A DNA stretch of 64,000 bases from Echinostoma caproni (Eukaryota > Platyhelminthes > Trematoda > Plagiorchiida > Echinostomatidae): the NCBI GenBank assembly GCA_900618425.1, contig UZAN01039373.1, positions 146,546 through 210,545 on the forward strand, read 5' to 3'. The translations under genes and the position numbers were made by a program. The notes under the pieces are model-generated. The model had not been told where the DNA came from. It made no database searches and saw only the letters and a program-made list of their open reading frames with translations. Of the stretch, positions 18,401 through 62,500 are shown in pieces; position 1 is the stretch's first letter; every line of letters starts with the position of its first letter.

Positions 18401-20801
18401 GCTATATTTGAATTCATTTTCTATTGCATTATCATTTTTGGAAAGCTACGATTTCCAAATGCAAGCGATTTGATTAGTTTCCAGATTATCCGTCTGCGCT
18501 GAAAGTGAATCTTCTCTAAAACAGGTAGTTCGTCACCACGCTCGGGGGAATCCGTTTTATGAATTCAAAACTATTCCAAGGTTCGCTTATCCGAAACCGT
18601 CAAAACTTAGACGATATTTTTAGAAATGATACGGAAAATAATCAGAGATAATGTTCGAAGCGTTCAAGCATGAAAATCACGCGCGACGGAGAACACAACC
18701 AGTCAGTAAACCGAATGACATTTTTGAATCGCCCGTTTCACAAAAGACAAGTGTCTGTTTCGAGCATACAGGTAAACTCATTTTCATGACCTGTCAACGA
18801 GTATGACAACTTGTCCAAAGCACCATAAAGCATGCATCTGAAAACGCTTTCGTTACTTTCGTCAGACGACAGCTGTCGATGAAACCAGTAAAGTTTGGCT
18901 GATTAAATGACTCCGTTGAATAAATACTTCACTGATGGACAGCGAGCGCTGCGTTTATCCCCAAACCCGAGTCAGGTAAGTGTATGGGGTAGATTCTCTT
19001 CAACTACATACCTAAAACGTTGCGTGTGACCAGGCGCATGCCAATCACAACTAAATTATTTTCGTGAGCGCCTCTCTCCTGTTAGCTTTTGTATTACTCT
19101 GATTGCTCTATATGATTTATTGTAGATATAGCACTGTTGTTCGGTTCAATGACCCGCTATACGATTTGATACGCCTGGCCGTTCATCCACACACTGACAT
19201 GACCCGTTATATACAAGTCCGACTGTCTTGATTCACTCGCGTGCGCATGCCCATACTGACACAATAACATCTGTTTCTTTTAACTGATTAATCTCCACCT
19301 ACATGTGCACACATGAAAAAGAACACACGGGCCGCTCATCACAAATGTTTTCAATTCAGTCGTAGATGCGCTAGCTCACTGCTGTTCACATATGTTTGGT
19401 ATATTTGGTTTGCTTTTTAATATGCACCCGTCACTTAGAGGCTACTTGTTGCTTCTCCTTGACAAGACTCGGAAGGACTATACATTTGTTTCATCCCGAT
19501 GCGTTTGAACGTGCATACTTGGGGTTATGAATTCGATGAGTAGGCATAACGGAATAATCCAAGTGACTGTTGGCAATTGGCTAACTTTGGCTGACATGAA
19601 GCGCATCCATCACTATTGTTTAAAGTCTACCTGACGATGGTAGACTGCCTGCTGTACGGTGTGTAATACTTTAGTAACAGTACCTTAAGATACATGCTAC
19701 TTACTGATTTGTTATTATTTTCACTTCTTTGATTGCCTGCTTTGTTGCTGTTGCATTTTTATGTATAGTTTTAATCAAACTGACTCACCGTCTGAGATCT
19801 GTTCTTCCTGTTTTGTGTCGAATATCCCCTAATTTGTCCTTCACTAATATGAAGTCGATTTCGCCTCTCCTGATACGTGAGAATCCACGTAATGGTAAAC
19901 TGACGATACCGGGAAAATTGCTACCTTCCAAACTTTTAGAGATCTGAAACTGATATTAAGTATTTATAACGGAATATTTATGTTTGAGTAAACAGATGGT
20001 CTGCTGCGAGAACCCAGCAAGCCAGAAAGAGTTGCTACTTCTGTAATATAACGATTTGGGATGTTGTTGTACGCTATATTACTGGTTCCATCCGCACTCT
20101 ATTCGAAGTTAAACAAATGGTGACCTACTTTGAAAATAACCTTGATTCTGAAACAACATCTATCGGAGCTAACTTCGGAACGTAGCACACCAAATTGAGG
20201 TGATTACTTTCGTCCTACATGACTTAGCTTATCACGCGAAATGTGTTTGTTGACTGGAGTTGAACCGTCATGTTTTTCTACGGGGTCCAATGGTAAGTCA
20301 TTCTTTGCCAAAAATAGTTCACATTAGTATATTTCGTTCCTCACGCATGTTTTACGTATACACAGCAGACGTATACCGCCCATTTTTCTGTTGCCACTCA
20401 CGTGATTATTCACAGATTGCATTGAGTCAAGGCGATGAACATCGCACCGGATATTATACGAACTGAGTGTGTCCGATCTTTCGGGATGGGGTCCCAAGAT
20501 TTATACCGCCAGTTAGTTTATCGGAAAAAAGAAGACCTATATAACAGCGAACTGGTGCAATATCTCTCACATTTTAATTTACTATTTGGTCAGAATATTC
20601 AAGGGAATGTGGAAATTACAGTGAAGGAGCATTTACATTTACTCCCCTTGACAGAAATAATCGAGAACGTCTCTTAAGAGATATGGTGGCGACTATGAAG
20701 ATGCGGTTGGTGAGTGTAGGCAGGAGGATGATATGTAAGAGGATGGCGATAATAATAATAATCACGCTAGTGATTTTCGTAATTTTAACTCAAAATAATA
20801 T

Positions 20802-20870
20802 TCCATTTCGCCTTTTCTCCGAGCTTGGCAATTTGTTTGCAAACGTTTCTTCACCAGCCGAGGTGACATC
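20802..20870 (+). repeat. Diverged copy of the 34780-34857 palindromic repeat
   Basis: The stretch TCCATTTCGCC...CCGAGCTTGGCAATTTGTTTGCA matches the left arm and loop of the palindrome at 34780-34857 with only a few changes. The right half (AAACGTTTCTTCACCAGCCGAGG) is heavily changed, so this copy no longer folds. Finding two copies shows that the palindrome is a dispersed element and not a local accident. Confidence 0.65.
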
Positions 20871-21327: not shown

Positions 21328-23033
21328 TAATAATAACAGTTATATAGTTATCAAAATCACTATAATTACGAGTTATTTGATCATCCAATCTCTATCCTTA
21401 ATACTTTTGGTCAATACGATTCGCTCAAAATTTGTTTTTGAGTGAGTCTGTATTACGGCCCTTCTGTAGAGTTTGGATACTTTCTGCACCATCATGCATC
21501 TTTGAAATGCAGGATAAATGGGAACATATTCGGACAATATCTTTTACTTCCTATGCAATCACTTTCAACATCAGCCTTATTCAGTACGTTGCCAAGAAAC
21601 TCTACATGATCTCCATGGCATGGATTCACACGAGGTTAAATCCATCAATTTCTAATGTTTTGTGTAACGATGGGTTAACAATAAAAATTCACATATCAGA
21701 AGCACAATAATTGTTGTACTCACGAGGTGTCAAAAATATTGGCAAAAGTAAATAGTTCCAAGTTCGTCCTGATTTATTGATGTCGCTTTTCTTTCTCCTG
21801 TGGTATTTTTATGTAAATTAGGTAATTTGCTGCACATGAATAGCTGATAATCAGTTGTGTTTTTAGACGGTTGACTTCTCAATCGGGCGTTCATACGCCC
21901 AAGAACGCGATAATCGGCACCGTAATCGACTTACAGTTACAGTTGGTTTAGGCGAAGTCAGTTGTCCTACTGATGGTAAGTGACTGCTTTGGCTCGACAT
22001 CTCGGATGGATGGTCGCTATAGGGAACATAAACTTCATATGTCAGCCCATTCTTTGCTTTGTTCTGCCAAACGGTTCCTCCACTTGACGGTTCCCATGAT
22101 GAATACAAATTTGCGATTGCACGATATTTGTTAGACATCAGTCATCATGTGTACACACCAAGAGCGTTTCGATTGTTTAGGATATCTTGAAGATCATAAA
22201 TTTTCGAATTTCGTAAGCCATATAAATCCATCGCTTGAAAACAAAATCATGCATTCAAAAACATTTGTGAAGAAACTTTCGTTGCCGTGGTAGTGATAAC
22301 GTCACGCTAGAAGCTCCCGATCATAGTGCGCGACAAGACCTTTCCTCTTTCTCCCTCTATCACATTCACCATATTGTTTGACCACTTCAAGTTTGTAGCA
22401 AAATTTATTTCACTTGACCTGAACCGCTAACCAAACCCAAAGCAGGCAACTCACTTGTCCACCACCCTGTTCCAACGACTCGTTTCAACTGGAATGTTTC
22501 TTCCTTTGGCATTATCCTATGAATGTGCTGAAGGGGAGCTCGCGAAACTGATGATCACTATCAGTTATGCCCATATTTATCTTCAGGGGCTTATGAAATT
22601 CCAAATGGGCTTTCTGAAGAAAATAAATGTAATTCCCGGTTTTCACCAACCAACCTAAGTGTATGTGTGATTGCAGACCTAACAGCGACAACGTTCGCAC
22701 ATTCAGCAAAATATCATCAATTAACTTTTCGAGAAATATCTGTTGTGCACTTATAGTTGATATGAAAGTTGTACAGAATTATTGAGAAACGAACACAAGT
22801 AAATGAAAAATATCAGTCGAATGTTGATAAGGAAGCCATAGAACCGATTATGCCGCTGTAAATATATTGAAAAACTCACATGTACTTTTCGTGTTGTAAC
22901 GATGTGGATCTTCTAGTAAGGAAGTTTATAAATGAACCATGACGGTAATACAATGCACCACACAATCCTTCCCCCAAGATAAAATGTACGAATCCAAAAT
23001 TAAGCACAAGACAGACTAAAAGTGCAAACGTAC

Positions 23034-23338
23034 TTCTGTTTGAGGACAATGAAGATAGTAGATCACTAACTGATCTATGAGGACACACGCCCCGGTGTCA
23101 CGCAGTGCCAGCTGAAATCGTTTGCTGGTTGGTCGAAAATTAGCGTGCACCATCTTCATCAGGTTATTTCCGGCATACGAATTGACAGGTTGAACGTGTT
23201 TTGGAGACAATTGGTCAATTTGTCGGAAACCCTTTTGGCAAAATAGGTCGGAATAAGTAATGGACGGAATGTTACACGCAGGCGATGAAGAAAACGATCG
23301 ACTAATGGAATAACCGGGTAGTGCTAAAAACTTGTCTC
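23034..23338 (-). CDS. Eph: Eph receptor tyrosine kinase, ephrin-binding domain exon (C-terminal half)
   Basis: The minus strand stays open over about 100 codons and ends at donor GTACGT after 23034. The end of the translation is diagnostic for the Eph ligand-binding domain: IDQLSPKHV, FRPTSKRFQLALRDTGAC, then VLIDQLVIYYLHCP, matching IDTIAADE..., gplskkGFYLAFQDvGAC and v.l.sv.vyYKKCP of known receptors. Further upstream, ACNIPSI matches the rdCNsiPg strand. It splices in phase 0 onto VNLMQLPQ at 15401. The acceptor is uncertain: AG just above 23338 and a TTTTTAG just above 23323 both keep the frame and phase. About ten residues of the loop after the CNIP strand are short compared with vertebrate receptors. 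The first half of this domain and the signal peptide must lie further up and were not found. Confidence 0.88.
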
Positions 23339-26300
23339 CTATTTTAAATTAACAATTTGTTTTGCTGACGTCAGATAGAATTATTATATGCTCACGCAAT
23401 GATGTTTTTTTTTCGAATTTCTTTCCGGTAATCGCTGTAAAAAGGCATTATCTCTTACCAACACAGTGTTGATCGTGTGACATTCCTATTTTACAGAGCG
23501 AAATATTACTACGATTGAACAACCATTATACACACTGACTGAGGAACCAGAAAATGTCGGATGGAAAATAAATATGCGTTCAAACAAATTGTAGTTTTAA
23601 GGTCCTACGTAATGCGTTTGGTATCTAATTTCGGATCTAGGCAATACACGCGTTAGTTTCAAATCGGTAGCATGAATACGTTTCTAGTAACTTCAATTTG
23701 GTCACTCGGAGGGCTCATTATTCCGCTAGGTACTGTAATTCATACATAACGCTATGGTTTCCGAGATATTAAAGTAGCTTTCATGTTTATCTGGTCAAAT
23801 AACTGAACAACAGAATAATGTCAGTATTCTGTACTGATATCAAGCGGAACATTATTTTGTACAGCTTAGAATCGCGTTTTTCTATGGATATATTTCTTTT
23901 ATACTCTGGTTATATTTCTCCTTTCGCAAGCTTCATTGATGCTTACAACGGCCAACTATTTAGAACACAAATGAAACAGCTATTGAAGGCTTATAGAGCT
24001 TTGTAGTTATTTGCGCAACTCGTGGTCATTTAGAGACAAATACGTCTGTGCGCAGGCCAAATAAATCAAGCATATGCCTATTCTCATATGGGGAATGAAT
24101 GAACAAAAAGTTATGGAAACGGGGTTCAAAAATTAAGCAAAAAAGGTAGATAAATTAAATAATAACGGAATGAGAGTGTAGGTTTTCTTATCCGTAACTT
24201 TAAGGGAGTTGAAAGGACAGCGGTAAGTGGCTCCTCAGGATACGACCAAGGTCCGATTGGTAAAATGGGTACCTTCGTGTATCATTACTTTGTGCATTTT
24301 GTGATATAGATTTCACTGGACGGTAATAAACCCGAGTGAAAATTTCAAACTTGAGTGGAGTTATAGGAGGTCCGGCGTGACCTAATGAGTGACGATCGCA
24401 CTTTAAAGTGGTCAGGAACTGCTGCCAGTCACCCACGGTGAATGGAGTTCTGTCATGCGGATATACAAAAGCACATCGATAAGACTGACGTTAAGTGCAA
24501 TAAAAGCCCATCTGAAGGAGTAATTCAGCAAGAGTTACGAATATATTTCTCAGGGTTATCACACCTGAATAATTGACAAAACAAGAAAGGCAATAATCGC
24601 CCAATTGGTAGACTTCAATGCTCGATTTAACTTTGTTGGGGAGTATATTTTAAATTTCATTCACTCTGCTACGGTGAATGAGAGGATCTGGTTAACTGTT
24701 TTTATTGATTAGAAGAGAAACAGACCTGATTTTAGTTTGCAGCATTAATTATTACCAGATTGTTTAAACTTACTTAAAGGTTTTATTATAGTTTTCAGTA
24801 ACAAAATTTTTAGATATTTATGGGCTTACCAACCGATGTAAGTTCTCAACACAAGCGCGATTATATGAATTTGTCACGGCGTTCACTAAAAGGCATACTT
24901 AGGTGAAGTCATTTTAAATCTGCTGCTAATTCCCTCACAAATCAAACGAAATCAGTGTAGACTCATCCAGCAATTCCGTCCAACGCGTTGTTTGAAGAAT
25001 GTTGTTTTCAAAATAAAAGGTTTTCGGATGGAAAGCTGCAGGGTTTGATCTTCCAAATTACGTCTGAAGGAATACGCCTGCATTGTGAAAGACATCGTCG
25101 TGTTATTCCAAATACATGTCAGAAGAAAGCATCTATTAGAGAGCTGGACCATCCTTTGCCACTCAGCTCTGTATTCAACATTTCGGAGTTAGTGACCACG
25201 TTCGAGACAATAAAGTTGAATTTCCAAGCATTCTGTTTTTTATTTTCCAATTTGAACTGAATGCACAGCTCTATCTCTGGCACTCCCAGCGTTTTATGGA
25301 GCAGAACTATCACGTACTCATGCAGCACTACACACTTGCCATAAAACACAGTCGTTCTGGCATTTATTCAATCGGGATACAGTCTGGGACACGGAAATGA
25401 CAGCCGACACCCAGATCGTTGTTGTTCAATCTGTTTCACTTTGACAACCATCAACCCGGAATCAAATACACTAGGCTATGCAAGTGATTTGGAAGCAAAG
25501 AAGAGTACATAAATTATCAGCAAATCTCATCCCGATTTTTCCCTGAAATCGGATGCTTCATCCAATTATTCATTATCGCTTTGGGAATAACTATTAGTTC
25601 CAGAATTGATTGAGACTTTACAGGAACAGCCGTGATCGTGGTCGTACAATAATTTAATTTGTTCTAAGCTTTTGTTCATACCAAGATCCCGGCCGAGGGA
25701 TTTTGAACGGGGGCGATGTAGAAGAGAGGAGTAACTAAAAAGAAGATGCTTTATTTGGCCATCGTAAAATTGAAGGGTTCCGTCACCCGTGTAAATCCAT
25801 CGACCTAGCTCATGTTTGAATCCACCTCTTATCGGGTGGAGCGCTAGCATAATATGTACTTGGTCGTACGATCCACGGTTGCTCTGTTGATGACAAAGGA
25901 CAACTTCCCAGTGCCCCTCAGATTTTGTCTTCTTGGCCCTGTGTGCGAAATCCTACAATATAATTGAACTCTCCCTTATGCTACTGCAGTGACGAATTGA
26001 TCTTCCTCGGTTATAGGTTAAATTTCGATTTCAAATATGCACTGTTTTCATGCAAACACTGCAGTTCTTTTTCACTTTGTTTCACTCATTTGGCCCTTGG
26101 AATCGCCTTTCTGCGTCCGTGAACGTTGTTTATCCTCACTTTCATTCCACCCTGTAGGCGAACAATGTGATTTCCTGCACTAAGTCGCGGCACAAATGAA
26201 CCACTTTAGACATTCTACTTCACACTATAAATTGGTTGCGTACTCTAGGTAGTATCTATTTTGCGATTAAGAAAATGTTTTATATGTTATGTTAAGGCAC

Positions 26301-29300
26301 GATAATATGATGTATTTCGAGGTTTGAAAAGGAAAAATTACTAATTCTCATCGCATCCATTGGTTTGAGTCTGTTGAGTGCCGTTTGATCCAACGCGTAA
26401 AATAAACATTACATGATAAGTAAAGGTGAACTGTACATTTCGCGTATCTACTTCGTTCCTTTCAGGGTTGAGATTCAATATAGGATTCGATAATGGCCAT
26501 ATATTTGTCTTGTTCTCTGGCTTCCACTTGCCAGTTTGATCATCGTTGTTGTTCACCAGCTGCAAATCATAACTCTTGTCTCCTCATTTGGTGCTTACTC
26601 ATGAAACAGTCAAACCATTGAAATCATGTGAAGCGGACGACTAGTGAAATGAAGATTTTGACATCTAAATTCTTGCCTTTAAAACGATGTAGTCGGAACC
26701 TAATGTCACCGGTGAACTTGCCAACTCCCTGGTATGCAATTTGAAACATTTCAGGGAGCTGCTCTCAACCGGAGATATTCATGAGTCAGTTGACAGAAGA
26801 GTACTGGAATTGTACAGTAAATGAGCAACACAATTTGCAAAATGATCAAGCGATGAGATAACATGCTTGCTCCTATGTGATGTGGTTGATCGAGGTTCAA
26901 ATCATTCCATTCACAGAGGATATTAATTTAATAAAACAAACAGTTTTTCGAAATATAAAGAGCACGCAACTGTATGGTCAATTGCAAACACGCATTGAGG
27001 GATGAATTTACGAAATTCAATTAGAGATCGTTGAATAGAGCACAATCGGGTGCGAACCGTTTTGGTGATCTGAATGCTCAGTTTGCTGCGACCTTGACCC
27101 TACTCGGAATGCCCTAACACTGGAACTAAAAAAGAGGTGACTAAAGGCACTTGCTCACTTCAAGGAAGATGCATATGTGGGTGTTCATCATATGCTTCAT
27201 GATAAGATTGGTGGAGATTCGTTGAGTGAGTCTATTTGTTGGTTAGCATGTTAGGACTGTAGTCGTGATGTTGACCCACGTGCAATTTTCAACAACTTGG
27301 AGCAACATTTTGGGTAGTGCTATCGCCGAACAGTCAAACAGAGACCACAGCAATGAAACTTCTTCAAACGTTTGAGCGGTGATCCAAACAGCCAAATGGC
27401 TAATCATACTTCGCTTTGCCTATGAATGTGGTCACTCGAAAGTGAAAGGAACCTTTAAGCGGGCTTTAGTAAAATGTGAAAATGCCGAATCCAAACACAC
27501 AAAACGCATACCTGCAGTTGGGAATTATTATCCGGTTGATCGAACTGTTTCACCATCACATCAAATTCTTCCCGACACTGATGGGTCTCCCAGATGCCTT
27601 GATCCAAAGCACCTCGGTCTTGTTCGCAACTGTGCATCTGATAACGTATATCCACATGCACGCTGAGAATTTGGTCTGAGTTAAACACCAAACTGAATAG
27701 CCAATATTCGGCCGGATGTCCAACTGCTCGAGCTGAATGTGGTTTGTTGACAACAGATTTGTTGATTGCTTGAGTTTTGTTTTGCACATGGTCGGTGGTG
27801 AGCCCAGTTTGAATAGTGGATTGTGGTGTGCGTAGATCCCGATCGATTCGAGTCAATGCGGTCTCGCACACGCTGTATACAAGGTGACCCGAACCGGCTC
27901 GACTCTGTTGACGCCACTAATGAGGTGGGGAAGTAATGGAACAGAGTAGCGTTCACTGATGCAATCAACAGAGTTGTTTTTCTGTTATTCAAAAACATTC
28001 TACGTCTGAACAATACGTGGATTTTATTGAATCTTTATGCAATCAGATTCGAAGTAGAAATGGAGTAATTCTTTCCTAGGATGATCTGAAGCATTCAGTC
28101 GTTATAATTATTTGTTGAACACTAAACTGTGAATTAAATAATATGGAACCAAGTAACGGTGCAGAACAATTCGGAATGAAAAGAGGCAAAAGCTCTTGAA
28201 CTCCGCAACCCCTTTGTCACCGTAAACGGATGAGATATTGAATCATTGTGTTGCTTCATATAAAGCGTTTTTCACGAGTTAACTCATTACTCTTTACCCT
28301 AAGAGATCTTATCTATCCACATTACCAATTTATGCTGAATTTTGTGCATACGTATGAGTTTGTCAAAAGCGCACTCTTAGCATCATTCAACTTAGTAAAA
28401 CGTATTGACGGTTTTTTTAAAGATCTACTAGGGAAAGACTATGTCGGGAATCAGTGAACACAAAATGAGGTACATGACACTTAAACGGCATGAGAAATGT
28501 GGATGGTCGCTTGGAAGTCTCGCAGTAACTCTATAACCGACAGATATTTAAGTGACTAAAAGTGTTTTCAGAGTCGGTCAAAGAGTGAGGTATTAGCATT
28601 GTGGGATTACTGACAGGACTCCGGGGACCTCCAAAATACAAACACGAAATTGGAAAACAACGCGCACTGATTGATAACTAGTGAAAAGTATTGTCCGTAG
28701 AGTTTGGAGCTATCTGAGTATGCGCATCTGGAAACATGAACGCCCGAGAGAGTAAGCTGAAAATTTAATAGGCGAAAGTAATTGCAGAATCCAAATAGTG
28801 AAGTGTGCCAAGTAAATAAATCAAAGCCATCAGTTTGGACCTGCCTAATCGCGCTCGCACGCTCGTAGGAAATAGTGAATAATGAACGAAGGAAAACAAC
28901 GAAATTGAAAATTGATTGTATGATGTCATTATCTTTGAACGAACAGTGGAATCACCCCTTGGCTAGGAAATTCATAGCGTTTGAATCACCTGTCATTATG
29001 CACACAGAATAGTTTATCTGATAAGGATGCTACCTAAACGGTCGGTTTTGAATCAATCTATTGTGCTTTTGAAGGAGTTTTAACTCAATTGTTTATTTCA
29101 ACTGCATATCCAACTTCTACCAAATTGTGAATAATTCAACTTGATGCAGTTCAACTGCACCGTTTGGGAATCCGTGTGAAGAAAGATCTTTAATGGGCTG
29201 TGAAACCTGAGTTGTAACTTGAACCGCGAAAAAACAGATATCAAAGTACACTTGATTTCGTAACCAATAATAATAAAACCAGAAAGACATCTGATCTATT

Positions 29301-31194: not shown

Positions 31195-31415
31195 ATCAAG
31201 TTGTAAACCTTTATTTCTGATAAATCAGCACACCAAAGAAAGCAATGGACCGCTGTTTCGACCCGGTTGGGTCTCATCAGAAGTGCGAATCCATCGATCG
31301 AACTGGGTTGTGATTGTTTCCAACCGAGCCATAACCTTGGAGTCTGGTGCCGAGATAAGCGAGGTCTGTTGCTTGCAACAATCTCGTAAACATGGTTTGC
31401 GCTATATTGTTTAAA
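31195..31415 (-). mobile_element. SINE family B, copy 1 (carries hammerhead domain)
   Basis: The minus strand reads a degenerate head, then GTTCGATCGATGGATTCGCAC, the hammerhead domain (31286-31242), and a 3' body TTTCTTTGGTGTGCTGATTT followed by an AATAAAGG-like tail. It lies head-to-head with copy 2 at 31437, which shares GGTTCGATGGATTCGCAC in the opposite orientation. The head end (about 31340-31415) is poorly matched, so the outer boundary is approximate. Confidence 0.7.
31242..31286 (-). ncRNA. Hammerhead ribozyme (intact core) in SINE B copy 1
   Basis: Read on the minus strand: GCACTT, then CTGATGA (31280-31274), stem II GACCC-AACC-GGGTC (31273-31260, five perfect pairs with a 4-base loop), GAAA (31259-31256), then C-AGCG-G closing a 2-bp stem III (A56-T49, C55-G50), and the cleavage triplet GTC (31250-31248) followed by CATTGC. 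All invariant core positions of the hammerhead (CUGAUGA, GAAA, NUH) are present. Stem I would pair GCACTT with CATTGC: four of six pairs, with mismatches at the first and third positions. Other copies show GCACTG and CAGTGC, which pair fully, so the ancestral stem I was intact. The minimal 2-bp stem III is like that of schistosome Sm-alpha hammerheads (family knowledge). Predicted cleavage lies between 31248 and 31247. Confidence 0.75.
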
Positions 31416-31436: not shown

Positions 31437-31575
31437 ACCCAGTGGCCGAGTGGGTAGCATGCTTCCGTTCTGCCCATAAGGTCCTGGGTTCGATCCTTAG
31501 TGGGTTCGATGGATTCGCACTACTAATAAAACCCAACCAGATCATAAAGCTGTCCAGTGCATCTTAGGTTTTCGA
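31437..31575 (+). mobile_element. SINE family B, copy 2 (decayed hammerhead)
   Basis: The tRNA-like head is clear: GTGGCCGAGTGGGTAGCATGC (A-box region) and GGTCCTGGGTTCGATCC (B box). The body follows as GTTCGATGGATTCGCAC, then the hammerhead region 31517-31560. The core has decayed: CTAATAA in place of CTGATGA, AACCC/AGATC in place of a paired stem II, and ATAA in place of GAAA. The GTC triplet and CAGTGC strand remain, and GCACT still pairs with AGTGC. The right end after GCATCTTAGG is not sharply defined. Confidence 0.8.
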
Positions 31576-34500
31576 TTCACGCTTCATTTGCCACATACAT
31601 GACGAATTTACCCTTTGAAGTTGAATAAAATTCTCCATTTCTCACATCCAAGAGAGATTCCATCCTGCAAATGATCTTTATAACGGTCGTTTAAAGTACA
31701 AAAACCCAGAATACTGTGATTTGTTCGAAGAAACATTTTGCTTCGGATACGCTGGAATCGGTTAGGTTGAGGTCGCACGCATCTCAATTGTTATTACTCT
31801 ATGTTCCTCATCAATCAAGCATTATAATGCTCGAGGCAGTGTGCTTCGACAACTCAAGGTACTTGAGCAGCATGTATGACTTCAACTGTTTTTCTGCGTG
31901 TCTTTCAAGTGACTCCAGTGTTATAAGGTAGTCGTAGAATCCCAATTGAACCAGAAACTTGTGTAACACTCGAAATTCCATACAAGTCGAGTTCCAGCTT
32001 TAGAAAGTGAAACGGTCGGAGGCACAGAAAATGCAATTATTAGTGTTAGCTAGCTAGTATTAAATTGGCATCAGTTCGCTCGCTAAATAAATAATAACTA
32101 TCACTCTCTCCCCAAAATTGAATTGTGTAATACGGGAATCCGAATTCGTGATTGCAATTTGTTTGTCTGTGTCGCGTTCATTTTGGTTTGAATAATTCAT
32201 TTGCTATTATTGTTTTTATAGTTATTATCTCAGTACCCAGTTGTATTACACTTGTCTTTAATCCTCTATTTCTTGTAAGGAGATCAAACCGATTGTGATG
32301 TGGAAATTTACCAATCTCAGGTTCCGACTACCGGATGTTTTAAACATGTTACACTACCGATTGCGTTATCCTAGGTTATCAGTAGCTCACAATATCGCAT
32401 GTAAAGTTCGCTGAAGAACTGTTGGAGTCTAATATTTCTACAAGTAACAGGAAAGCCGTTATGAAATCGCTTTATGGTTAGTCTTTTAGTGAAATGGTGT
32501 GTACGTGATACTTTTGAAGCCTGAGAGTAGTATTAAAGATCTGTTATTGAGATGTATAATATTGATGCAATTTATATTAGGTAACGACAACTACTGACTA
32601 GGCAGTGAAGTTGTTATGGTCTCCTCCTAACTGCTCGTTCTCTGAAGGGCACAGTAGAGACAGACTTGCTGCAAACAACCATGCGTATATTCGGCCAATT
32701 CTACCGTCGTGTGGTGGATATTTTGTGTGGTCGCTGTTGAAGTTATTCTCATTCATGAATTTGCAACATTCACCAGGTTTCATTTAGCAGTATTCCGAAA
32801 GAATAAAACCAAAGGAATAATTACTNNNNNNNNNNNNNNNNNNNNNNNNNNNNNNNNNNNNNNNNNNNNNNNNNNNNNNNNNNNNNNNNNNNNNNNNNNN
32901 NNNNNNNNNNNNNNNNNNNNNNNNNNNNNNNNNNNNNNNNNNNNNNNNNNNNNNNNNNNNNNNNNNNNNNNNNNNNNNNNNNNNNNNNNNNNNNNNNNNN
33001 NNNNNNNNNNNNNNNNNNNNNNNNNNNNNNNNNNNNNNNNNNNNNNNNNNNNNNNNNNNNNNNNNNNNNNNNNNNNNNNNNNNNNNNNNNNNNNNNNNNN
33101 NNNNNNNNNNNNNNNNNNNNNNNNNNNNNNNNNNNNNNNNNNNNNNNNNNNNNNNNNNNNNNNNNNNNNNNNNNNNNNNNNNNNNNNNNNNNNNNNNNNN
33201 NNNNNNNNNNNNNNNNNNNNNNNNNNNNNNNNNNNNNNNNNNNNNNNNNNNNNNNNNNNNNNNNNNNNNNNNNNNNNNNNNNNNNNNNNNNNNNNNNNNN
33301 NNNNNNNNNNNNNNNNNNNNNNNNNNNNNNNNNNNNNNNNNNNNNNNNNNNNNNNNNNNNNNNNNNNNNNNNNNNNNNNNNNNNNNNNNNNNNNNNNNNN
33401 NNNNNNNNNNNNNNNNNNNNNNNNNNNNNNNNNNNNNNNNNNNNNNNNNNNNNNNNNNNNNNNNNNNNNNNNNNNNNNNNNNNNNNNNNNNNNNNNNNNN
33501 NNNNNNNNNNNNNNNNNNNNNNNNNNNNNNNNNNTAATGTCAGAATAAGGTTAACAAGCTCATGTTGACCATGGGCATGTAAATTCAAGAAATCCGTCTA
33601 GTAATTGCCCTAGGCAGGGCAAACCTTGTTTGCAAGTCAAACAAATATGTTGTTCATTCATACCACTTCCATACACTCCTCGCCCTCAACTATTGCGATG
33701 ACCATTGGCTGGTATTACACACCCTACATCCCATCCTCAGAAGTTCATTTATGAAGATAATAGCTAAAGTACACATTATCCGGAAATTTAACTTCGCCTA
33801 TAACGGCAAATATCTGTCTAATGGACATCGTTTGTTCAGCCGTAAGTCAGGTAAAAGGCAGTAAAACTTACGCATTTTGTATTGCATCTAGGGGAAATAG
33901 TTACCGAATATACTACCAGAAATGATACAGGATTGCAGCATTTGTGCTCAGTAAGTTTTGTTGCTTACAGTACTACGAAATGATTAAATAAAAGAATTTT
34001 GCAAGCACACAGCAGTTTATTTGACGACTGAAACCAGTACATTGATCCAATGGATAAAGCTAATCTCAACCGTATCGTTTTGAAATTCTGTTTGGCACCC
34101 TGAGTCATCCGGATTCCTGTATAAGTACAACTACTCGCCGTTCTAAACCAAATGAAATGACCCAGAAATAATTCAGTTCAATTTTGAGAAGATTGTTATG
34201 CTTCAGTGACCTCGTTGACTCATGTGAACTTTAGGGGTACGGCTTGTCAGATCAATCAAGTTACTTTGTTTTGCCTTCATTTTATACCTTCTCGCATCAT
34301 TCTTCGGCCCAATGCTTTGTGGAATAGGCTGAGCTCTTCTTTGTATTCCGGGCTTGGATGAGTTTGGTGAAATCTCATGACAAAACAATGCGATCAATGC
34401 TCTTCTATCAACTCATTTCAATTGAGTTTAAACGTGATTTGATGCGTAGCCACATATGTATATGCATAGGTATCTGCTTCTAAGACACGTTGAGCCACAA

Positions 34501-34779
34501 TCTCTCGCTTTTGAGAAAAGTAATTTTAAGAACTATTTATCGCAATGGATTTACCAAACAAAGCCGGTAATGTCCTCTAAAATGGAGAAGTTTGTTTCTG
34601 AGAGAATCCTTCGGGTTCTACACAGGGTAAAACATATAACTTCTAATTCCACCATACTCATCTCACCCAAACCCGATCCCTTGAAACGTCAGTGCAATAA
34701 TGGATTCATGTAATTCTGACAATAAAGACACTTTCGACAAAATATTGAAAATCCGTTGTCGTAGCTCGGGTGAACTGAA
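31576..34779. other. No supported gene; includes a 709-N gap
   Basis: I find only short scattered open frames and no recognisable domain or repeat on either side of the gap. Confidence 0.5.
32826..33534. other. Assembly gap, 709 N
   Basis: Run of undetermined bases. The long open frames that cross it are an artefact of the Ns. Confidence 0.99.
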
Positions 34780-34857
34780 TTCCATTTCGCCTGTTCGCCG
34801 AGCTTCGCAATTTGTTTGCAGACAAATCGCCAAGCTCGGCGAACAGGCGAAGTGGAA
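34780..34857. repeat. Near-perfect 78-bp palindrome (36-bp arms)
   Basis: Arms at 34780-34815 and 34822-34857 are inverted copies with a 6-base centre (TTGCAG). Of 36 pairs, 33 are Watson-Crick, one is G-T, and two are mismatches (A-C and C-C). The arm core is CGCCTGTTCGCCGAGCTT, notably GC-rich for this region. The left arm recurs at 20802-20840, so it is a small dispersed element, perhaps a foldback MITE or a structured-RNA repeat. No target-site duplication is obvious. Confidence 0.9.
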
Positions 34858-40800: not shown

Positions 40801-43584
40801 TCAAAACTTCTTTCAGAAAAACGTTTGCTAATGATTTGACCCAAGCAACGGTGTAACGAGCACAACGTCCCCACTCGGTCCAAATATTTATCTTGAAACA
40901 GTTAATGAGTACTATGTTCATTCTGTGATGACGATGAGATGGGCACCCCGAGATGAAGAACAATATCTATCCGCAAAACGGATATCGGTCATTGATGGCA
41001 GACAATATAACGTATCTCAACAATGATATACAGTTACGAAATTGGCAGTCATTCCCACAATGACCTATGCGGGGAAAACAATGGGTCACATGATATTGAC
41101 ACAGAAACTGTTCTGTTCATTAATATGCATAGGAAAGGTCAACTTCCGAGGTCTGTACTCAGGCCATCACTGGTATGGCACATGAATGACACGCTGGTAA
41201 TCGGGCGCATATAATAGGCACGGTCATGCTAATCGGCTCAGCGCTGAACACATCACAAAATGTCCTGTTGGGGGGGGGGCGATGGGAGGGGAGGAAGGGG
41301 TGGACGCGAACCATAAGGTGACTCATGGTTGATCGCACGACAAGTGAGGTGAAAGCAAGTGAATACAAATAAAGGCGGAGGGAATGTAAACAGGTGGTAG
41401 GCGGCAGAGTGAGACGGGACCTAATGGGAGACAGACAAAAGTTCACAAATATGACTGAAACCACAAGTCAAGGTTAACTGAAACAGGTTGTTGAGGGAGC
41501 ACGCTGACGTGTGAACGTAGCACCGAGTAGCACCAAACCAGAATGGAAAGCGACAAATCTACGGTAGATCTAGTGAAACAAATACGCTACAACTAAAGTC
41601 CATTGACAGGATTTATGTAAGAGAAGCAAACGTCAAGTGGATAGGACAATGAAAGGATTTTCTATCGTACGCAATGCAAGAGACCATGACCGATTGGTTT
41701 CGGACTTATAGTAAATCAATCTTTCTCTTTCTCTCAGCTGGACGTAATTTGAACAGTACTGATTCGGTAAATCGGGAAGCATCGATTTGAGCTAATTGAC
41801 ACAGGGAGGCACACACACAGTCCCCTCCAGCCTGCGCGAGATCCGGTGTTCATAGCCCATATGAGACAGTGGATATCCATCATCCGTCGGTTGTAATGAG
41901 AAGCACGTTCAACGGTTTTCTACGTTTGCCTTTTTCACCAAATGAACGGACTACGGTGGGAGAAAATTAATTCCGAATTTTAAGCATTGAAACTTCGAGT
42001 TGATGTTACAACCTATCTGAATTCGTTTTTTCTAAAACTTCTGAATAATACCTTTAAGTTAAGTTTCCGCTGCTTTCCTTGAAATATCGGGATAACAGCA
42101 AAGCCGGTGTACCGGTATACCGTGTCCATTCGGTTAGGGAGATGTAAATCATCCATTGGAGTTGTTCCATATATCGCGGACTCCTGACATTGAAGATAAA
42201 CCAATTCATCTCGATCATTCCACAAAACAGCATGTTTCCCTTTCGAAAGCCATTTCTTCACGATTATCTAGTCATAGAAAGGACGCTAATTATTTACTTA
42301 CTCGAACCATCGATTTGTTTTCGGCATAGATTCATATGTTTTTTTGAAGTTGTGGTTGCAGCGTGATACTAATTTCTGTTTCACAAATCCCCAATTAAAC
42401 TCACATGCACACAACCTAGATGATCCACTGATGAAAGCATTCCTTGTCGTTGATCAACCACAATTATAGAATTTAAAAGAGATATTTTAACACTTGTAAA
42501 AACCATGCTATTTTGCAACCGTATGTTAACGATAGAAAACAATCGAATTCAAATCTGTATCTTAAAATACGATACAATTTATCCCAGAAATAATTGCTAC
42601 TCGTTCACTGATCTATCTGCATCCTTTTCGCTCTGAAACTGAATAAGCATGAAAACATCGTGTATATGCGAAGGTGCAAAGATCGGCAGAAACCAGTAGG
42701 TTAGCACTTGGAATGCTTTTTTTCTGCTTCGGATGCTACGTTCTTGTCGGGTTTCAATGACCAGCTGACAGGTAAAAAACGCTGACGGTTGAACAGCAAA
42801 AGATTAACAGCGTGTGCTCTGTGTACGAAAACACAGCGCGTTATTTTGTCAAATTGGTAGGTTGTATGCTAAAAGGCCTAGGTTCATACTGCTGTTCAAG
42901 GTCACCTCAGGAATTGGACTAAACATAAAACTCCAACAGATAGATATATTCACCCAAGAATCGGTGCATCCTGAATCTGAATTGGCCTAAGAAAATAATA
43001 ATTATCTCCCATCCGTTCCGTTCTTTTTGGCAAATACAGATCCGTGTTCACGTTGCACTGATTACGATTTTGGAGGATTTGTTAATGAGTAACTGAATCA
43101 AATGATATATTTCTCAGACTGTGAGGAATGAGCAATTTGAGGAACTTAGCTGCAAAAACGTTATCTGCTTGGGTTGATAGACGGCAGATTGAATGGATGG
43201 TAATTTATCAGGTTTACTTCCTGCTTACATCTTGAGAGCAAGAACAGCCGTATTTTCATGATTCACGATGACTGCAAAAACAAAACACGTACTAATGATT
43301 TCGATGTTTCTCCTTTCCTGAGAGGCACTGAAATCAGATGTTTATTCAGTTAATTGCTGACGGTGTATCAGCGATAAAAATGTTTCTGATTTTTAACTTT
43401 TGAATACTTTTTTGTATTACTCGACTAGCTGTGACTTATAGCAACTAAAAAACAACTCTCTCTGCATAAAGAGGGATTGTAAACGTTTCGTTCTAATATG
43501 CTTCAAATTTTCATCTAAAGCCTTGCATACCATCAGTTGAACATGCGGTGAAGGTGACGTTCGATTGGAGTTATTAAAAATAGA
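37837..43584. other. No supported gene
   Basis: I see scattered short frames. Open frames at 39338-39625 (plus), 40040-40291 (minus) and 42013-42261 (minus) are among the longer ones, but they match no family I know and lack convincing splice sites on both sides. A G-rich patch lies at 41270-41300. Confidence 0.5.
41270..41300 (+). other. G-rich tract with G-quadruplex potential
   Basis: A run of ten G is followed by CGAT and then GGG, GGGG and GGGG groups separated by one to five bases. This satisfies the simple four-G-run rule for a G-quadruplex. It sits in a locally purine-rich stretch (41270-41420) of otherwise AT-rich DNA. Confidence 0.7.
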
Positions 43585-43690
43585 GTAGCAAGCTTGAATT
43601 AGTCCATTCAGTTGTTCGGGGCACCAGGCACTGTTGATGGTCTTGGCTGTGGGTTTCACTCCTTTGGAGATCGTAAAACTCCGACTGGTT
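43585..43690 (+). mobile_element. SINE family C, 5' fragment
   Basis: AGTAGCAAGCTTGAATTAG, then CCATTC and GCACCAGGCACTGTTGATGG matches the front of the fuller copy at 59326. The fragment stops after a degenerate GGGTTTCACTCC, and no hammerhead domain follows in this orientation. Confidence 0.75.
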
Positions 43691-43714
43691 AAATGCAGTT
43701 AAATGCCTTGGAAA

Positions 43715-43870
43715 TATTTGTGATAATCGATAAAGAGCACTTGACAGCTGTTTCCTTCTGTTTGGGACTCGTCAGCAGGGCTTAATTTGTGTGTCCCTAT
43801 CAGAACTCGATCCGCGAACATTCGGTTCGGAACTTCAAACGCTTTCGTTTGAGCAACAGTTCACGGGCAT
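43715..43870 (-). mobile_element. SINE family C, inverted copy (carries hammerhead domain)
   Basis: Read on the minus strand: GAAGTTCCGAACCGAATGTTC, GGATCGAGTTCTGATAGGGACAC, then the hammerhead domain. This aligns base for base with the copy at 59400-59500 (GAAGTCCCAACCAGG..., GGTTCGACTCCTGACAGGGACAC). It lies between two plus-strand fragments of the same family (43585-43690, 43905-43985), making a nested or inverted cluster. Confidence 0.75.
43737..43781 (-). ncRNA. Hammerhead ribozyme, partly decayed, in inverted SINE C
   Basis: On the minus strand: GCCCTG, CTGACGA, GTCCC-AAACAGAAG, GAAA, CAGCTGTC, then AAGTGC. The catalytic sequences CUGACGA (position 7 is variable in hammerheads), GAAA and GUC are kept. 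Stem II is damaged, since GTCCC now faces AGAAG, where GGGAC is expected. Stem III contains the fully self-complementary octamer ACAGCTGT, which is the form expected for hammerheads that work as dimers. Stem I keeps four of six pairs. It is probably weak or inactive now. Confidence 0.6.
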
Positions 43871-43904
43871 CAGTGTGTGCGGATGGCTCAATCAGTTTAG
43901 AGTA

Positions 43905-49920: not shown

Positions 49921-50045
49921 GGTACTGAAAAGCTATTCTGGTTTGGTTTGTTCCCATCAGAGGTGTAGGTTCATCGATGCAACTGTTGATCAAACCTGGG
50001 AACTCACCGGTAGACCTCCAATACCGGGTAGCTGATCAGATAGAT
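49921..50045 (-). mobile_element. SINE family B, strongly diverged copy
   Basis: The minus strand reads CTGATCAGCTACCCGGTATTG, GAGGTCTACCGG, CCCAGGTTTGATCAAC (B-box region), GTTGCATCGATGAACCTACAC and CTGATGG GAACA AACC AAACC AGAATAGC. Aligned with family B, the hammerhead region is present at 49967-49922, but CTGATGA is CTGATGG, stem II does not pair, and GAAA is AGAA. This is an old copy with an inactive ribozyme. Confidence 0.6.
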
Positions 50046-56062: not shown

Positions 56063-56517
56063 AAAATGAATGGCAAACACTTGCTAAGAAAAAGAAAGAT
56101 ACCAGCGATGTCGCAGGACAAAATACGCAAAACCCTGCACAATTTACTCTCATAGTAAATATTTTTAGTTAAGTTGGTAGCACATATCTCAAACATCCAA
56201 AAAGAAGTGAATGCAATTAACCGACTCCATTTAGCATTAGCGTGTATCCAGTATTCTGTGTCTGTGCATCACGAACGTCACCTACATGCGATGGAGCTTC
56301 ATTTTATGTTATATTTAATTGCAATCATTACGCACCATTTTATTTGACTCCTGTTAGGCTGCTGTCAGCTGTAACCTTCTCCGTTGATACCCCAGACATA
56401 TCGCATTATTTGGCTGGGTTGTGTGTCACTTGCACGCAAAGTTGAACCATGGAACGATTTCAAAAGTGAAATTCGTCGTATTTATGCCAAATAAAGCGTG
56501 AATTGAAAAGCTACGAA

Positions 56518-56672
56518 GCACTGGGCAACTATGTTAACTTGGTTGGCTTTCATCAGCAGTGCAAATCCATCGACCCAACTAGGGATCGAAGCAGGGACCT
56601 CACAGGCAGGACGGAAGCATGCTACCCAATAGACCTGATCAGCTGCCCGGTGGCCGAGTAGGTAGCATAGCC
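56518..56672 (-). mobile_element. SINE family B, copy with inverted duplicate head
   Basis: Read on the minus strand: GGGTAGCATGCTTCCGTCC, TGCCTGTGAGGTCCCTGC, TTCGATCCCTAGTTGGGTC, GATGGATTTGCAC, then the hammerhead region 56562-56518. Stem I is perfect there (GCACTG with CAGTGC) and CTGATGA is intact. The rest is decayed: AAGCC faces AAGTT in stem II, GAAAC has become AACAT, and GTC has become GCC. On the plus strand at 56636-56672 the family head starts again (CTGATCAGCTGCCCGGTGG, CCGAGTAGGTAGCAT), so two heads point away from a shared junction. Confidence 0.75.
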
Positions 56673-59321
56673 GGAAGTTGCATGAAAAGGCCTCCATGGA
56701 CGAGGTATGGAATGAACGGGCTAGACTTCTGATAGCCAAAACCTTCGACCCGCAGACGAGTGGGAAACCTCCATTTGTGCCCATTAAAACAGAACTCCAC
56801 ACTCAAATGGAACTTGGTAGCCTTTTAGCGCATAGGTTCATCAATCAATTTGTATTCTTTCTCAAAAATCGAAACTCACTTCTCTTGATCAGCCATTATG
56901 ATCATTTCCATACGTTGTATTAGAGAATCTTCGGCTAACATAATCCACTGATAACAATGTAAGTGACATTGCCTATACTTACATCCTAGGAAGCTAAATT
57001 TGTGTGATACACACAAGACGGTAGTACTTCCATTTACGAACCACAGTGCTTCACCAGTTAGTCCACAAATCTCATTGGTAATATTCGAAAGCTTAAAAAT
57101 AAATTATCCCAAGAACTTCTATCGTGAGCTGGGTAACAAAACACTCGTTTATGATGTTCTATTGGGTTTTTACGGGTAAAATTTGTGGGGAATTTTGGGC
57201 ATTATGATAGGAATCAAATGTATATTCTGGGCAACTAAGGAATTATTATTAGCCTACAACTTATTCAAATGGCGATGTTTCTAGGAGACCAACCGAAAAT
57301 GTTTGACTTAAGTCAAATCTTCACAAATTTGTTTGATACACAAGGGATCCATGTTCCAATTGACAAATCTATGAATCAAACGAAATAAATATATAAGCAT
57401 AAATTACATTAAAATATCATAGCGATGCAATTTTGTCTTAGAAAACATAAGGAAACTAGTCATCTTAGGAGAAACGGGAAGCAAAAGCTGGAAAACAGCC
57501 GATGCCTTCAGCATTGCAACTTAATAATCAAACGCGGAGGGTAGAATGTAAAACAAAACATCGCTTTTGGTCTCGGGGAAATGATCAAGGCTTTTGACAT
57601 GTTCAGATCTGTCTGATTCCTTCGGAATGAATTTAACTGTCAAATGACGTGTCAAAACAGAAACAACCTTTCTCTATGATTATCGCTTATACAGGCAGTA
57701 TTATGGGGCGGAATTGTGATTGAACAAGATCTGTCTCAAAACATGCAAACGTGATCGAAATCAGCACCTACCGGGTAATTGCAGTATAATACATAATGTT
57801 TTCGTGAATTACGCCTAACTGGTTTGGAATTTCACGTTTCAGCCGCTCAGGGTTACTTCACACAAATGCATCAGAGACCGGGTGCTGTGGGCTTTTAGTA
57901 TGTCTAAAATAAACAAAACATTCATTGTGCAATGGAATACACTTCGCACGTTCTAAGTACCTAGTATAAAGGTGGGAAAATATTGCACAGTAAGAATGCA
58001 CTAATTCAATTACCTACATTCACGCATGGATGGTGAGTCGATGGTTTCATTAGTTAATAGTGAGGCGAATCAGTGGTGTTTTTTTCTCTTCCCACCTATG
58101 ATCATCATGAATGAATGAAAGTAAGTGAAGCTAGAGGGGAAAGACTCGGTGCGAGTTTCTACCTATGAAGGACTAATGAACTTCCTTCAGGTAAACAAAA
58201 CCTATTCGATACATTGACAACGTAAACTATGGACTTCAAACGTCCTTGGTTTGCAAGCAACGCATTAAATAAGTGAACAAAATTGAGGAACTTTTCTACA
58301 TGTAAGTTTAACAAAAATGCATCCAAATTGAACGCCAATATTGACCATTACTATCAATCGATGTGGATTGTGTCCTGCCAGTTGTGTTATGTATAATCAG
58401 TCTGAGAGTAATATTTTCTGTTTAAATGAATTCTGGTGATATAATGTAGTCCCAGAGGGCGTCCTAAGAGGTAAGTGTGTCAAGCAAATAAGCACAATGT
58501 CGATTCAGTGCGACTAAAAACTGGGGTGTTCCTCCGCACTCTACTACAAGTCAAGGAACTGTGCTAAAGCACAAATCCATCTTCAGAAACACCGGACAAT
58601 CCCGAACAGTGTTGACTACATCAATCGTTCCTTGCAGTGCAGTTAATCAAACATAGCAGAAAAATGTGTAGTAACATATTATCACTTAGTTTACCACATT
58701 TTAGATTTAGTTCGAAAAGAAAAAGCCGCCTGTCATCTCATTCCTCTTCGGAGTATAATTGAATCCTCATTGAATGGGCAGGTGATATGTTGTGCATCGT
58801 AAGTCAATCATTAGATAATACTCCCGTCTGGTAATGAAACACATTGAGAGGACAAAGCTGTCGAGAACGCACAAAGCTTTCAAGAAATGGCATACATTTT
58901 ATTGAGGAACTTAGTCGATAATTGTCTTCGGTAACGCATAAAAGTTGTCGAACTCAGATGGGAAATTATGTTAGACCGCGGGAGGAAAGTGGGTGGAAAC
59001 TGAAAGTAAGTAACCAGAACGTGCAATTACTACACACAATCTGGTGCATGTGAGGAAAACCCGCAAAATGCAGTTCATTAACAACGTTCATGACGTTTCA
59101 TCGTCAATATCGATCTGTTATTCTGATTGGCAAATGCAGCTCTTATAACCAAATGCTTCTAGGAGATACAGTCAGTTTTGTGCTTCACACGCGGCGAGCA
59201 CAGCATGGTGGATGAAATGTTTGACTTGTCTCTGAAAACGGGTTTACTACAAGGGATCAGCTGAAAATCCCACCAGTGATGGTATTGCGTGATCAATCTG
59301 CGTGAACGTAGGTGATAATAT
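56673..59321. other. No supported gene
   Basis: Short open frames only. I see no repeat shared with other parts of the window. Confidence 0.5.
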
Positions 59322-59530
59322 TCGAGTAGCAAGCTTGAATTAGCCCATTCGTTTTTTAAGAGGCACCAGGCCCTCTTGATGTTCTTGGGGTGAGGGTTTG
59401 AAGTCCCAACCAGGAAGCTGGCGGTTCGACTCCTGACAGGGACACAAAAAGTAGGCTTGGCTGACGATCCCAAAACGGGACGAAACAGCTATCCGGTGCT
59501 GGTTTTGGTCAACACAAACATTTCTATCGT
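59322..59530 (+). mobile_element. SINE family C, fullest copy (carries hammerhead domain)
   Basis: Order on the plus strand: AGTAGCAAGCTTGAATTAG, CACCAGGCCCTCTTGATG, GAAGTCCCAACCAGGAAGC, the B-box-like GGCGGTTCGACTCCTGAC, AGGGACACAAAAAGTAGG, then the hammerhead domain (59454-59499) and a TGGTTTTGGTC end. Three partial copies at 43585-43985 confirm the unit. Heads of families B and C differ, but their bodies from CTGAYGA to GTGC align. Confidence 0.8.
59454..59499 (+). ncRNA. Hammerhead ribozyme, partly decayed, in SINE C
   Basis: Plus strand: GGCTTGG, CTGACGA (59461-59467), TCCC-AAAAC-GGGA, C, GAAA (59482-59485), CAGCTATC, then CGGTGC. CUGACGA and GAAA are kept, and the triplet is AUC, which fits the NUH rule. 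Stem II has four pairs but lacks the G10.1-C11.1 pair, because one base after CTGACGA is missing relative to the copy at 43737. In stem III the second pair is C-A. Stem I keeps only about half its pairs. The fold is recognisable, but activity is doubtful. Confidence 0.6.
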
Positions 59531-62500
59531 AGGTGATAATATGTTTGAAAAAGAGGTCTGGGGAAGCAGCTTGCTGAACATCGGAAAGACTGATGAGCAT
59601 TGTGTCTAAAGCCAACTGTCAACTCCATGTTTAGATCAAACAGTAGCTTTGAGAAAACTTTGTAGCTCATATCGACTTTACATTAAGCGTGAACGCGCAT
59701 CAGCTTGACCAACATCGGTGGTGTTGTAGTAGCACATATCAAACTCAAGGAGAATCATTGTCCATGGTTGGGGCCAACTAACCAAAAACACTGGAATGGC
59801 TTCCGTTGAACTGAAGATTGTTGATCAACACAGTGTGATGCAAACCGTGCAGCATATGTGAGGAAATTTTGAAATGTCTTAGAAGGATTTCCTTTTAATT
59901 TCCTCGTAGTTGGTTCCTACGCGAGTTACCGTACTAGATATCTTTATGGAACCTTTCCAACCGAAACTCGAAAACGTATGGCAAAAGAAAACCCCGATTC
60001 TGTAGCTAGAAGGACCTGTGGCATAGACGATTGAACGTTTTGAATATGGGCAGTAATTTATATTTCGTAAAGAACTCACAACACCAGTAGCGGTGACAAA
60101 CGTATTGTCATTGTTATAATTCCATAAGGCGGTACTGGTCACGGATAATCGTGTATTGGGGATCACATATGGGACATCAGTAGTTTGGCACATATAACAC
60201 AGAAAAGGTGGTCAGAAACATTCCATCGCAGTTTCTGTCCACACGACGGTTAGTGAATGTAGAAATGGATATTCCTTCTTTGAGACCCAGCAGATTGCCC
60301 TCAGTGATCTTGTTCATTTTTGGTCGTTAAAAGTAGTCGCCAACTATGTGGTCTACTACTTATAAATGAGTAGTTTCTCACAACATCATTAACAGATAGT
60401 ACTGTACGTAATTAATCGCGCTGTCCCATTCGATTGAAGCACCAAGAACTTTGATACCGAATCGTGCATACTCACTGAAATCACTGGGGACAATGAGGGC
60501 GGTTGGAATATTATGAAATCTGCAGACAGGATGGCTGGTTGCAAAGATATTTTACTTTCCTGAATACATGGGCTTAGCTGGATATGGAGGTGTTTTTTTC
60601 CGATTTATCAAGGCTCACGTGTCCTCATTGCCACATCCTTCGTTGACGGTAGGCCGCGACCCGACCTTCGGAGAGAAAAATGAGTAGCATTTTCGAATAC
60701 TAATCCCGTCATGAAAGCTGAGGCTATTAGAGAGTAGTTTTATTCAGTTTTTTTATTATCATGAATACTGATCGAAGCTCTGAGAGCTAGCTTACCAAGG
60801 AAAGTAAATGCAGCTTTCTTGGGGAATTTAGGCAAACTGAAATGAACCTTCTCATTCGTATAACTTTGATCCTCGCTTACGTAAAAGAGGTAAAACGTTC
60901 CATGCATCAGTGAGATTGTCCAAATCAACTGAAAGCACATCGTCAAACCGTTGGAGAGCATACCGACCAACATCATTCATCATTCATCATCAAAAAGCGT
61001 GCATCAGACATTCTTTTGCAGCTGGTATACCTTGCACTCTATTCCCGATTATACGGGTTTTTTTACTAAAGGCGTTCGATGCGCACGGACAGATTAAACG
61101 TGGTCAACGATTGGTTCGATCTTTTCAAATTCGAACATGAATTTGCTGGTTACTGTGCTACAACCAGGCATGATCCACGGAGAACTGTGTAAAATGCTGA
61201 ATTTCAATTATTTTCCTTGTTTTGGTTGTTTCAGGTCATCTCAATTAGTCCAATAGCCCGAAGACGTCAAGTTCAATGAATAACGTAACCGTAACTCAGA
61301 AAATCTGTGCAGAGAAAGCAGAACCAAAGTGGTTAAGGAAAGGAAGGCAAGTAGAGAAGCAGTTGAATGGAGTCTAATTCTGACACCAGAGATAATGGAT
61401 TCTGGATAAGAGTCGGTTCTTTGGCCGCAGCCACGAGGTTCATTATGCTATCGTAATATCCAAATGTGTAATGCAGTGAAATAACACATCTCAATGACTC
61501 ATCCTCTACATCGCAGAGGTTTTGGTCAATCTAAAATCAATTGCAACGGTTTTACCTAATAAATGCAACCGTACCATATCTACACTTCTGTTATTAACTG
61601 CACACGGTTATACCAATTCTATATGTAACCCAATTATCAGATTGATGTGATGGCATTAAACGCTGTATACAACCTTATATGTTATGGCTTGCACTACGCA
61701 ACATGTCTGGTAAAGTGTTGTGAGTCGCTGATAAATGTGTCTTCCGGGCCACACTCTCCAGGTTAGAAACCCGCCACCACCATCCCACGAAACTAGTAGA
61801 CGTATTTACTATCAACCTGACTGATGCACTACGTATTCTCATATGGTTCTTCTGTAGTTTCTTCCTCTTAATTTTTGAGTTTAATTTGCTGTTCCCATTA
61901 ACAAAACAATAGCTCCAGGTAATTGAAGGTTACTGTACTTCGGTAGTTCATCACACAAAGATGAATGCGCTTCGTTATTTGTGTTCTACAAGCTGTTATT
62001 ATTTTGTTACCGTGAGGCACCAAATCTTGTTCATCTGAGAACGGTTTGTGCTAGGTCCACAACTTCCCTATTACCATTGGTTGTGAATTGCGGTACTGGT
62101 ATGATCAGTCGGGGAGTATTTATAACCCTGCTATTTTGGTTATTCACTAGCCAATTCCCAATGAGTATGGCATTACCAAAATGAACCTATTTGGAAGTAC
62201 CAATGTGAGCAAATTGCTGTAGGAGATTTACTGATATTCTGGGTGAAGTGTTACTGATGTGGTAACTTTTGAAAACTACGTAACCACTTACGTCCGTCAG
62301 CCAATATGTGCTCACCGCGATTGGTTTCACACACGCTGTTACGCTAACCTCGTCGCTTTAGACCGATGGTGAAATCCGTGTCTGATAAATGAAAAGAAGA
62401 CCTAAAAGTGGAGATTTTCTGATTAGCAAAGACCTTGGTTTTGCCAATTTCGAAGCATATGAAGCTGGTTGGTGTGATATCCGGTGAAGTTTGCGAAGCA

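Follow-up and report, generated by a model that had tools for sequence, protein, structure and literature searches.

The DNA analysed here, referred to as the window, was a stretch of 64 kb (64,000 nucleotides) from the trematode Echinostoma caproni. Its minus strand carried a short sequence with the letters of a hammerhead ribozyme, and this raised the question of whether the locus was a working ribozyme, a chance resemblance or the remains of a mobile element. We concluded, with a probability of roughly 85%, that the site (copy A below) was a mutated copy of a short non-autonomous retroposon family, namely a hammerhead SINE akin to Sm-alpha and Sj-alpha. This reading rested on six related copies, a majority sequence with the shape of a hammerhead, direct repeats around one of the copies (D) and strings resembling the A and B boxes in another (B).

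Read on the minus strand from 31286 to 31242, copy A was GCACTT-CTGATGA-GACCC-AACC-GGGTC-GAA-AC-AGCG-GT-C-CATTGC. This was the layout of a type I hammerhead, and its coordinates were exactly those given in a preliminary description of the locus. The elements named in that description (CTGATGA, a five-pair stem II with an AACC loop, GAAA, a 2-bp stem III and GTC) were all present in the claimed order and spacing. Stem III was formed by an A-U and a C-G pair and was followed by GTC, and the cut expected after base 31248 agreed, as a predicted site, with the layout read here. The two mismatches attributed to stem I were also found, namely C.U at alignment columns 4/42 and U.C at columns 6/40, the second of them adjoining the cut. 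The features of this copy were the following:

31242..31286, minus strand: hammerhead motif of copy A, core letters kept, stem II with 5/5 pairs, stem III of 2 bp, stem I with 4/6 pairs
after 31248, minus strand: predicted cleavage site of copy A (C17; alignment column 39)
31223..31304, minus strand: stretch of copy A that aligns with copy B (62 of 82 columns identical) and spans the predicted cut

Taken alone, copy A was not a textbook hammerhead match. The Rfam covariance model of the type I hammerhead (RF00163), which had been proposed as a check, matched the same span with an E-value of 0.008 (64-kb window, 4227 families) or 5.9e-05 (471 bases searched), but the score of 28.4 bits was below the curated cut-off of 34. 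A structural descriptor, composed after the sequence had been seen and missing copies C and D, found one site in the real window, which was copy A; 300 dinucleotide shuffles gave nine sites in total, one of them with at least four stem I pairs. Based on the Rfam E-values and the shuffle counts of the descriptor, the match of copy A was unlikely to be due to chance.

The placement of this hammerhead inside a SINE-like repeat was supported. The locus was not an isolated case: five further related copies, falling into two subfamilies together with copy A, were found nearby, making six related copies (A, B, C, D, F and G) within 64 kb. The features of the other five were as follows:

31444..31619, plus strand: stretch of copy B alignable to copy F (139 identities in 177 columns), head-to-head with copy A on the opposite strand
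31517..31560, plus strand: hammerhead region of copy B with the mutated core CTAATAA
43737..43781, minus strand: hammerhead motif of copy C, above the Rfam cut-off, with stem II damaged
43711..43843, minus strand: stretch of copy C alignable to copy D (101 identities in 135 columns)
49921..50000, minus strand: copy G, decayed, with the core CTGATGG
56518..56562, minus strand: hammerhead region of copy F, stem I with 6/6 pairs, GAAA lost
56459..56635, minus strand: stretch of copy F alignable to copy B
59455..59499, plus strand: hammerhead region of copy D with the conserved letters intact and lacking one base ahead of stem II (Rfam 14.1 bits)
59393..59524, plus strand: stretch of copy D alignable to copy C

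Copies B and F were detected by self-comparison of the window, and the core of copy D was located by a core pattern at 59461-59486 (plus strand). Copy C was the only one of the six to pass the RF00163 cut-off of 34 (45.4 bits, E 1.9e-08), and copies B, F and G had no RF00163 listing. Copy G was found (18.3 bits, E 0.0001) with a sequence-only model built from five copies, which scored those five at 69-77 bits by construction. Its scores against B, F and A were each reached by none of 200 letter shuffles, whereas those against C and D were not above shuffles (reached by 32 and 17 of 200, respectively). The A-F identity was 51/68, next to the values for A-B, B-F and C-D listed above. Stem I was preceded by GATGGATT in A, B and F and by the related GATGAACC in G, and by GGGACACA in C and D. 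Judging by these strings, the family comprised at least two subfamilies. A possible very decayed relative, candidate H (53960-54013, plus strand), was marginal at 15.6 bits and was left out of the count; out of 200 shuffles, its score was reached by none against F, 2 against B, 3 each against G and A, 58 against C and 37 against D. Pattern scans of viral and prokaryote contigs gave 0 matches.

The core letters CUGANGA, GAA-A and U-H stood in the correct order and spacing in three of the six copies (A, C and D) and were lost in B, F and G. However, three intact stems were absent even in the copies that kept the core: stem I had 4/6 pairs in A, stem II was broken in C, and D had lost a base before stem II as well as a stem III pair. 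The innermost (fifth) stem II pair was C-G in copy A alone among the five aligned copies. Since the majority sequence of the copies had complete stems I and III, we claimed hammerhead membership for the ancestral element and not for copy A.

The majority sequence of the five copies had a complete stem I (GCACTG/CAGTGC) and a complete stem III (ACAGCTGT). In its stem II, one column was without a majority and the innermost pair was C.A, likewise C.A in the RF00163 consensus. Relative to that consensus, seven pairs were changed on both sides and all seven still paired, an outcome with a frequency of 0.00176 in a simple random model; among the unpaired columns, 3 of 15 differed. Across the five copies, 70.3% of the cells were paired under the hammerhead structure, as compared with 20-35% when it was slid by 1-3 columns. 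Inside the set of five copies, covariation did not exceed that of letter shuffles, 337 of 500 of which reached the observed paired cells and 218 of 500 the double changes, and one slid version (-1) had more double changes than the true structure (4 vs 2). The support came from the comparison with the Rfam consensus, not from covariation inside the five copies. Given the complete stem I of the majority and the seven compensated changes, it is very likely that a genuine hammerhead was present in the ancestral element.

Identities before, in and after the hammerhead were 59/73, 34/45 and 46/59 for B and F, and 48/63, 35/46 and 18/26 for C and D. This flank-like divergence, together with the weak internal covariation, fits a free (neutral) decay of the copies, and copy A evolved without visible selection.

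In fold computations, which exclude tertiary contacts and served as a guide only, the best free fold of copy A in a 73-base context had -20.8 kcal/mol, the hammerhead pairs only, in context, had -5.2 kcal/mol, and the best fold found with these pairs as constraints had -11.5 kcal/mol with stem III unformed; over the 45 bases alone, the hammerhead was less favourable than the best fold by 5.0 in the RF00163 consensus, 6.0 in the majority, 9.9 in each of A and F, and 13.4 in C. The stem I and stem III pairs of copy A had a probability of 0.0 in context. In its best fold, CGATGGAT and CGC were paired with GTCCATTG and GCG, and the cut site was buried. With the stem I mismatches and such a strongly favoured rival helix, copy A was predicted to cleave weakly or slowly, or not at all. 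The "intact core" of the preliminary description was right with regard to the conserved letters, but stem I carried damage next to the cut, and on its own the RNA favoured another fold. We filed copy A as a relic of a hammerhead SINE family rather than as a working ribozyme.

Promoter-like strings and possible insertion marks were found at two of the other copies:

31443..31496, plus strand: tRNA-type head of copy B, from A-box-like TGGCCGAGTGG to B-box-like GGTTCGATCC, found by a box pattern
59307..59321, plus strand: left 15-base direct repeat of copy D, CGTAGGTGATAATAT, candidate target-site duplication
59528..59542, plus strand: right 15-base direct repeat of copy D

The Pol III-like boxes of copy B sat upstream of its decayed hammerhead on the same (plus) strand; the heads of B, F and D gave no Rfam tRNA match at E-values up to 10. 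A tRNA-type head had been ascribed to the element around copy A. The clearest such head nearby was on the plus strand and belonged to copy B, a separate element placed head-to-head with A. We rejected 31443-31496 as the head of copy A because it lay on the opposite strand and ran into copy B. Upstream on its own strand, copy A had weak box-like strings, TGGCTCGGTTGG and AGTTCGATCG, that were recognized by eye only; the box pattern did not match them, and there was no Rfam tRNA there at E-values up to 10. These strings may be the tRNA-type head that had been meant. Copy A aligned with B only from 31304 on, and its upstream part was unalignable to the head of B.

Elsewhere in the window, a tRNA-like gene (13325-13406, minus strand; Rfam 45 bits; Cys with anticodon aca according to ARAGORN) lay between the outer arms of inverted repeats at 12907-13595, the outer arms being 87% and the inner arms 92% alike. 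A repeat pair at 3013-3204 and 9366-9539 (plus strand, 81% alike) appeared by eye to be a second tRNA-type SINE, and no hammerhead match was found there.

The direct repeats of copy D were exact, 221 apart, and enclosed 206 bases; judging by this arrangement, they looked like a target-site duplication. No direct repeat of at least 9 bases was found within 260 bases for copies A, B and F. The repeats at copy C were longer and of a different kind, not of the target-duplication type. Copy C was flanked by two repeats, each some 70-80 bases long (43575-43656 and 43897-43965), in the same orientation, 318 apart and 93% alike over 30 bases; a third copy of this repeat stood before D, where its orientation with respect to the hammerhead was reversed. 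Part of the 5' head was inverted in F (56635-56668) relative to its sister B and in C (43897-43965) relative to its sister D. Inversions at the 5' end are known from LINE-type priming, and the inverted heads of F and C resembled these. The alignment of B and F (177 columns) extended well beyond the cut site, and all six copies reached across the cut.

The window also contained a 78-base palindrome (90%) at 34779-34857, perhaps a MITE, with a partial copy at 20800-20844; the palindrome matched mir-1597 on both strands, well below the cut-off. A piece at 46077-46388 (plus strand) appeared by eye to be part of a mariner transposase. Its match to DDE_3 had an E-value of only 0.061, and one unnamed protein was 68% identical to it.

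Several other explanations of copy A had to be weighed against a decayed hammerhead SINE. The Rfam score below the cut-off, and the nine layouts that arose in 300 shuffled windows when no demand was made on stem I, could be taken as signs of a chance resemblance in unrelated sequence, but six related copies, one of them above the cut-off, and seven double changes preserving the pairing made this explanation scarcely credible unless the alignment of the copies is at fault. Copy A was also very unlikely to be a ribozyme that remains active and in service, for instance by cutting a host transcript that contains it. Two of its stem I pairs were mismatched, including the one adjoining the cut, a far more stable competing fold existed in context, and the hammerhead columns were conserved no better than the flanks between copies, although copy A did keep all the conserved core letters and stem II while its relatives B, F and G had lost core letters. 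Regarding a possible host transcript, copy A was located 3.3 kb before, and on the same strand as, a weak match to the Eph ligand-binding domain (27458-27916), so a position in a sense intron was possible. However, two pattern filters and an inspection of ten selected open stretches revealed no N-terminal Eph exon upstream. This match was one of the probable pieces of an Eph-receptor gene on the minus strand (27458-27916, 23019-23348, 15120-15428, 3589-3846 and 922-1266) that were spread over 27 kb and corresponded to the ligand-binding domain, the cysteine-rich part and FN3, every Pfam score being below the curated cut-off. Three of the exon pieces joined as a query gave no match at an E-value of 0.001.

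The remaining alternative was a retrozyme or Penelope-type element, in which tandem hammerhead units yield RNA circles. According to PMC7229834, non-LTR retrozymes harbour most type I hammerheads of animals, and platyhelminths have analogous repeats. Moreover, the stem III of the family, ACAGCTGT, was palindromic like ACGCGCGT of the RF00163 consensus. Nevertheless, there was no tandem array of hammerhead units in the window, the sole array listed being of the ATC type. None of the six copies had a second match on the same strand with an E-value of at most 0.01 at a distance of up to 1 kb, and one weak same-strand match (12.2 bits, E 0.58) lay 951 bases from G. Copy D was a single unit between direct repeats. 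The absence of tandem units in the window spoke against a retrozyme, and we consider this alternative unlikely.

For the hammerhead SINE, we propose a family unit of about 200 bases in which a tRNA-like Pol III promoter would precede a type I hammerhead. Pol III would transcribe the element, and in young copies the ribozyme would cleave the transcript behind GUC and produce 2',3'-cyclic phosphate and 5'-OH ends, as is established for hammerheads. A partner retrotransposon would then reinsert copies of RNA that is uncut or has been re-ligated. Because every one of the six copies spanned the cut site, cut RNA would not have been their template unless re-ligated, suggesting that it was not the usual template. 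The pattern within the family also suggests that source elements retained the ribozyme, whereas copies decayed after insertion. A family with two or more subfamilies, pairing-preserving changes and copies that span the cut provides comparative material on the reason for self-cutting ribozymes in some SINEs. A broader idea, which we regard as rather doubtful, is that the subfamilies of this SINE lineage, possibly one outside schistosomes, kept the ribozyme through compensated changes and swapped heads and tails in the meantime; the template would always have been uncut or re-ligated RNA, so that the role of the ribozyme would not be to make the template ends.

Several known systems share features with the present family. 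According to PMC8490949, the elements W25.2, W26.2, W27.2 and W36.2 of S. mansoni likewise have an extremely short stem III and many altered copies; cleavage in vitro was seen for three W-element hammerhead candidates and failed for two whose core or cut site was altered. The W elements are described there as satellite-like repeats with autosomal copies too, whereas the present copies were dispersed single units. Metazoan non-LTR retrozymes also combine a type I hammerhead with a small non-coding retroelement and have been reported for platyhelminths as well, but in PMC7229834 they are described as tandem repeats expressed as circular RNAs, and the present window had no tandem units. With respect to flukes, PMC6191129 remarks on the absence of widespread SINEs. 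In the literature searched, mostly without subscription papers, no hammerheads in SINEs of non-schistosome flukes were described, which leaves their absence unproven.

The closest comparison was with the SINE-like elements of schistosomes. According to PMC2770079, both Sm-alpha and Sj-alpha are SINE-like and carry hammerheads, in agreement with what the preliminary description had said of Sm-alpha, and S. mansoni has about 38,500 hammerhead candidates. Similar to the present family, Sm-alpha of Schistosoma mansoni is short and non-coding and has a type I hammerhead and dispersed copies (PMC2770079 and PMC8490949). It resembles tRNA-Gln-TTG, whereas the head of copy B was without a tRNA model match; Sj-alpha of Schistosoma japonicum, likened here by description, is the same kind of element (both from PMC2770079). 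At the level of the ribozyme, copy C reached 45.4 bits on RF00163, and the present family differed from the consensus of this model by seven compensated pair changes; outside the ribozyme, its likeness to Sm-alpha was by description only. We take the RF00163 consensus to be close to the Sm-alpha hammerhead. Thus, the present family was a further example of the already known hammerhead-SINE kind.
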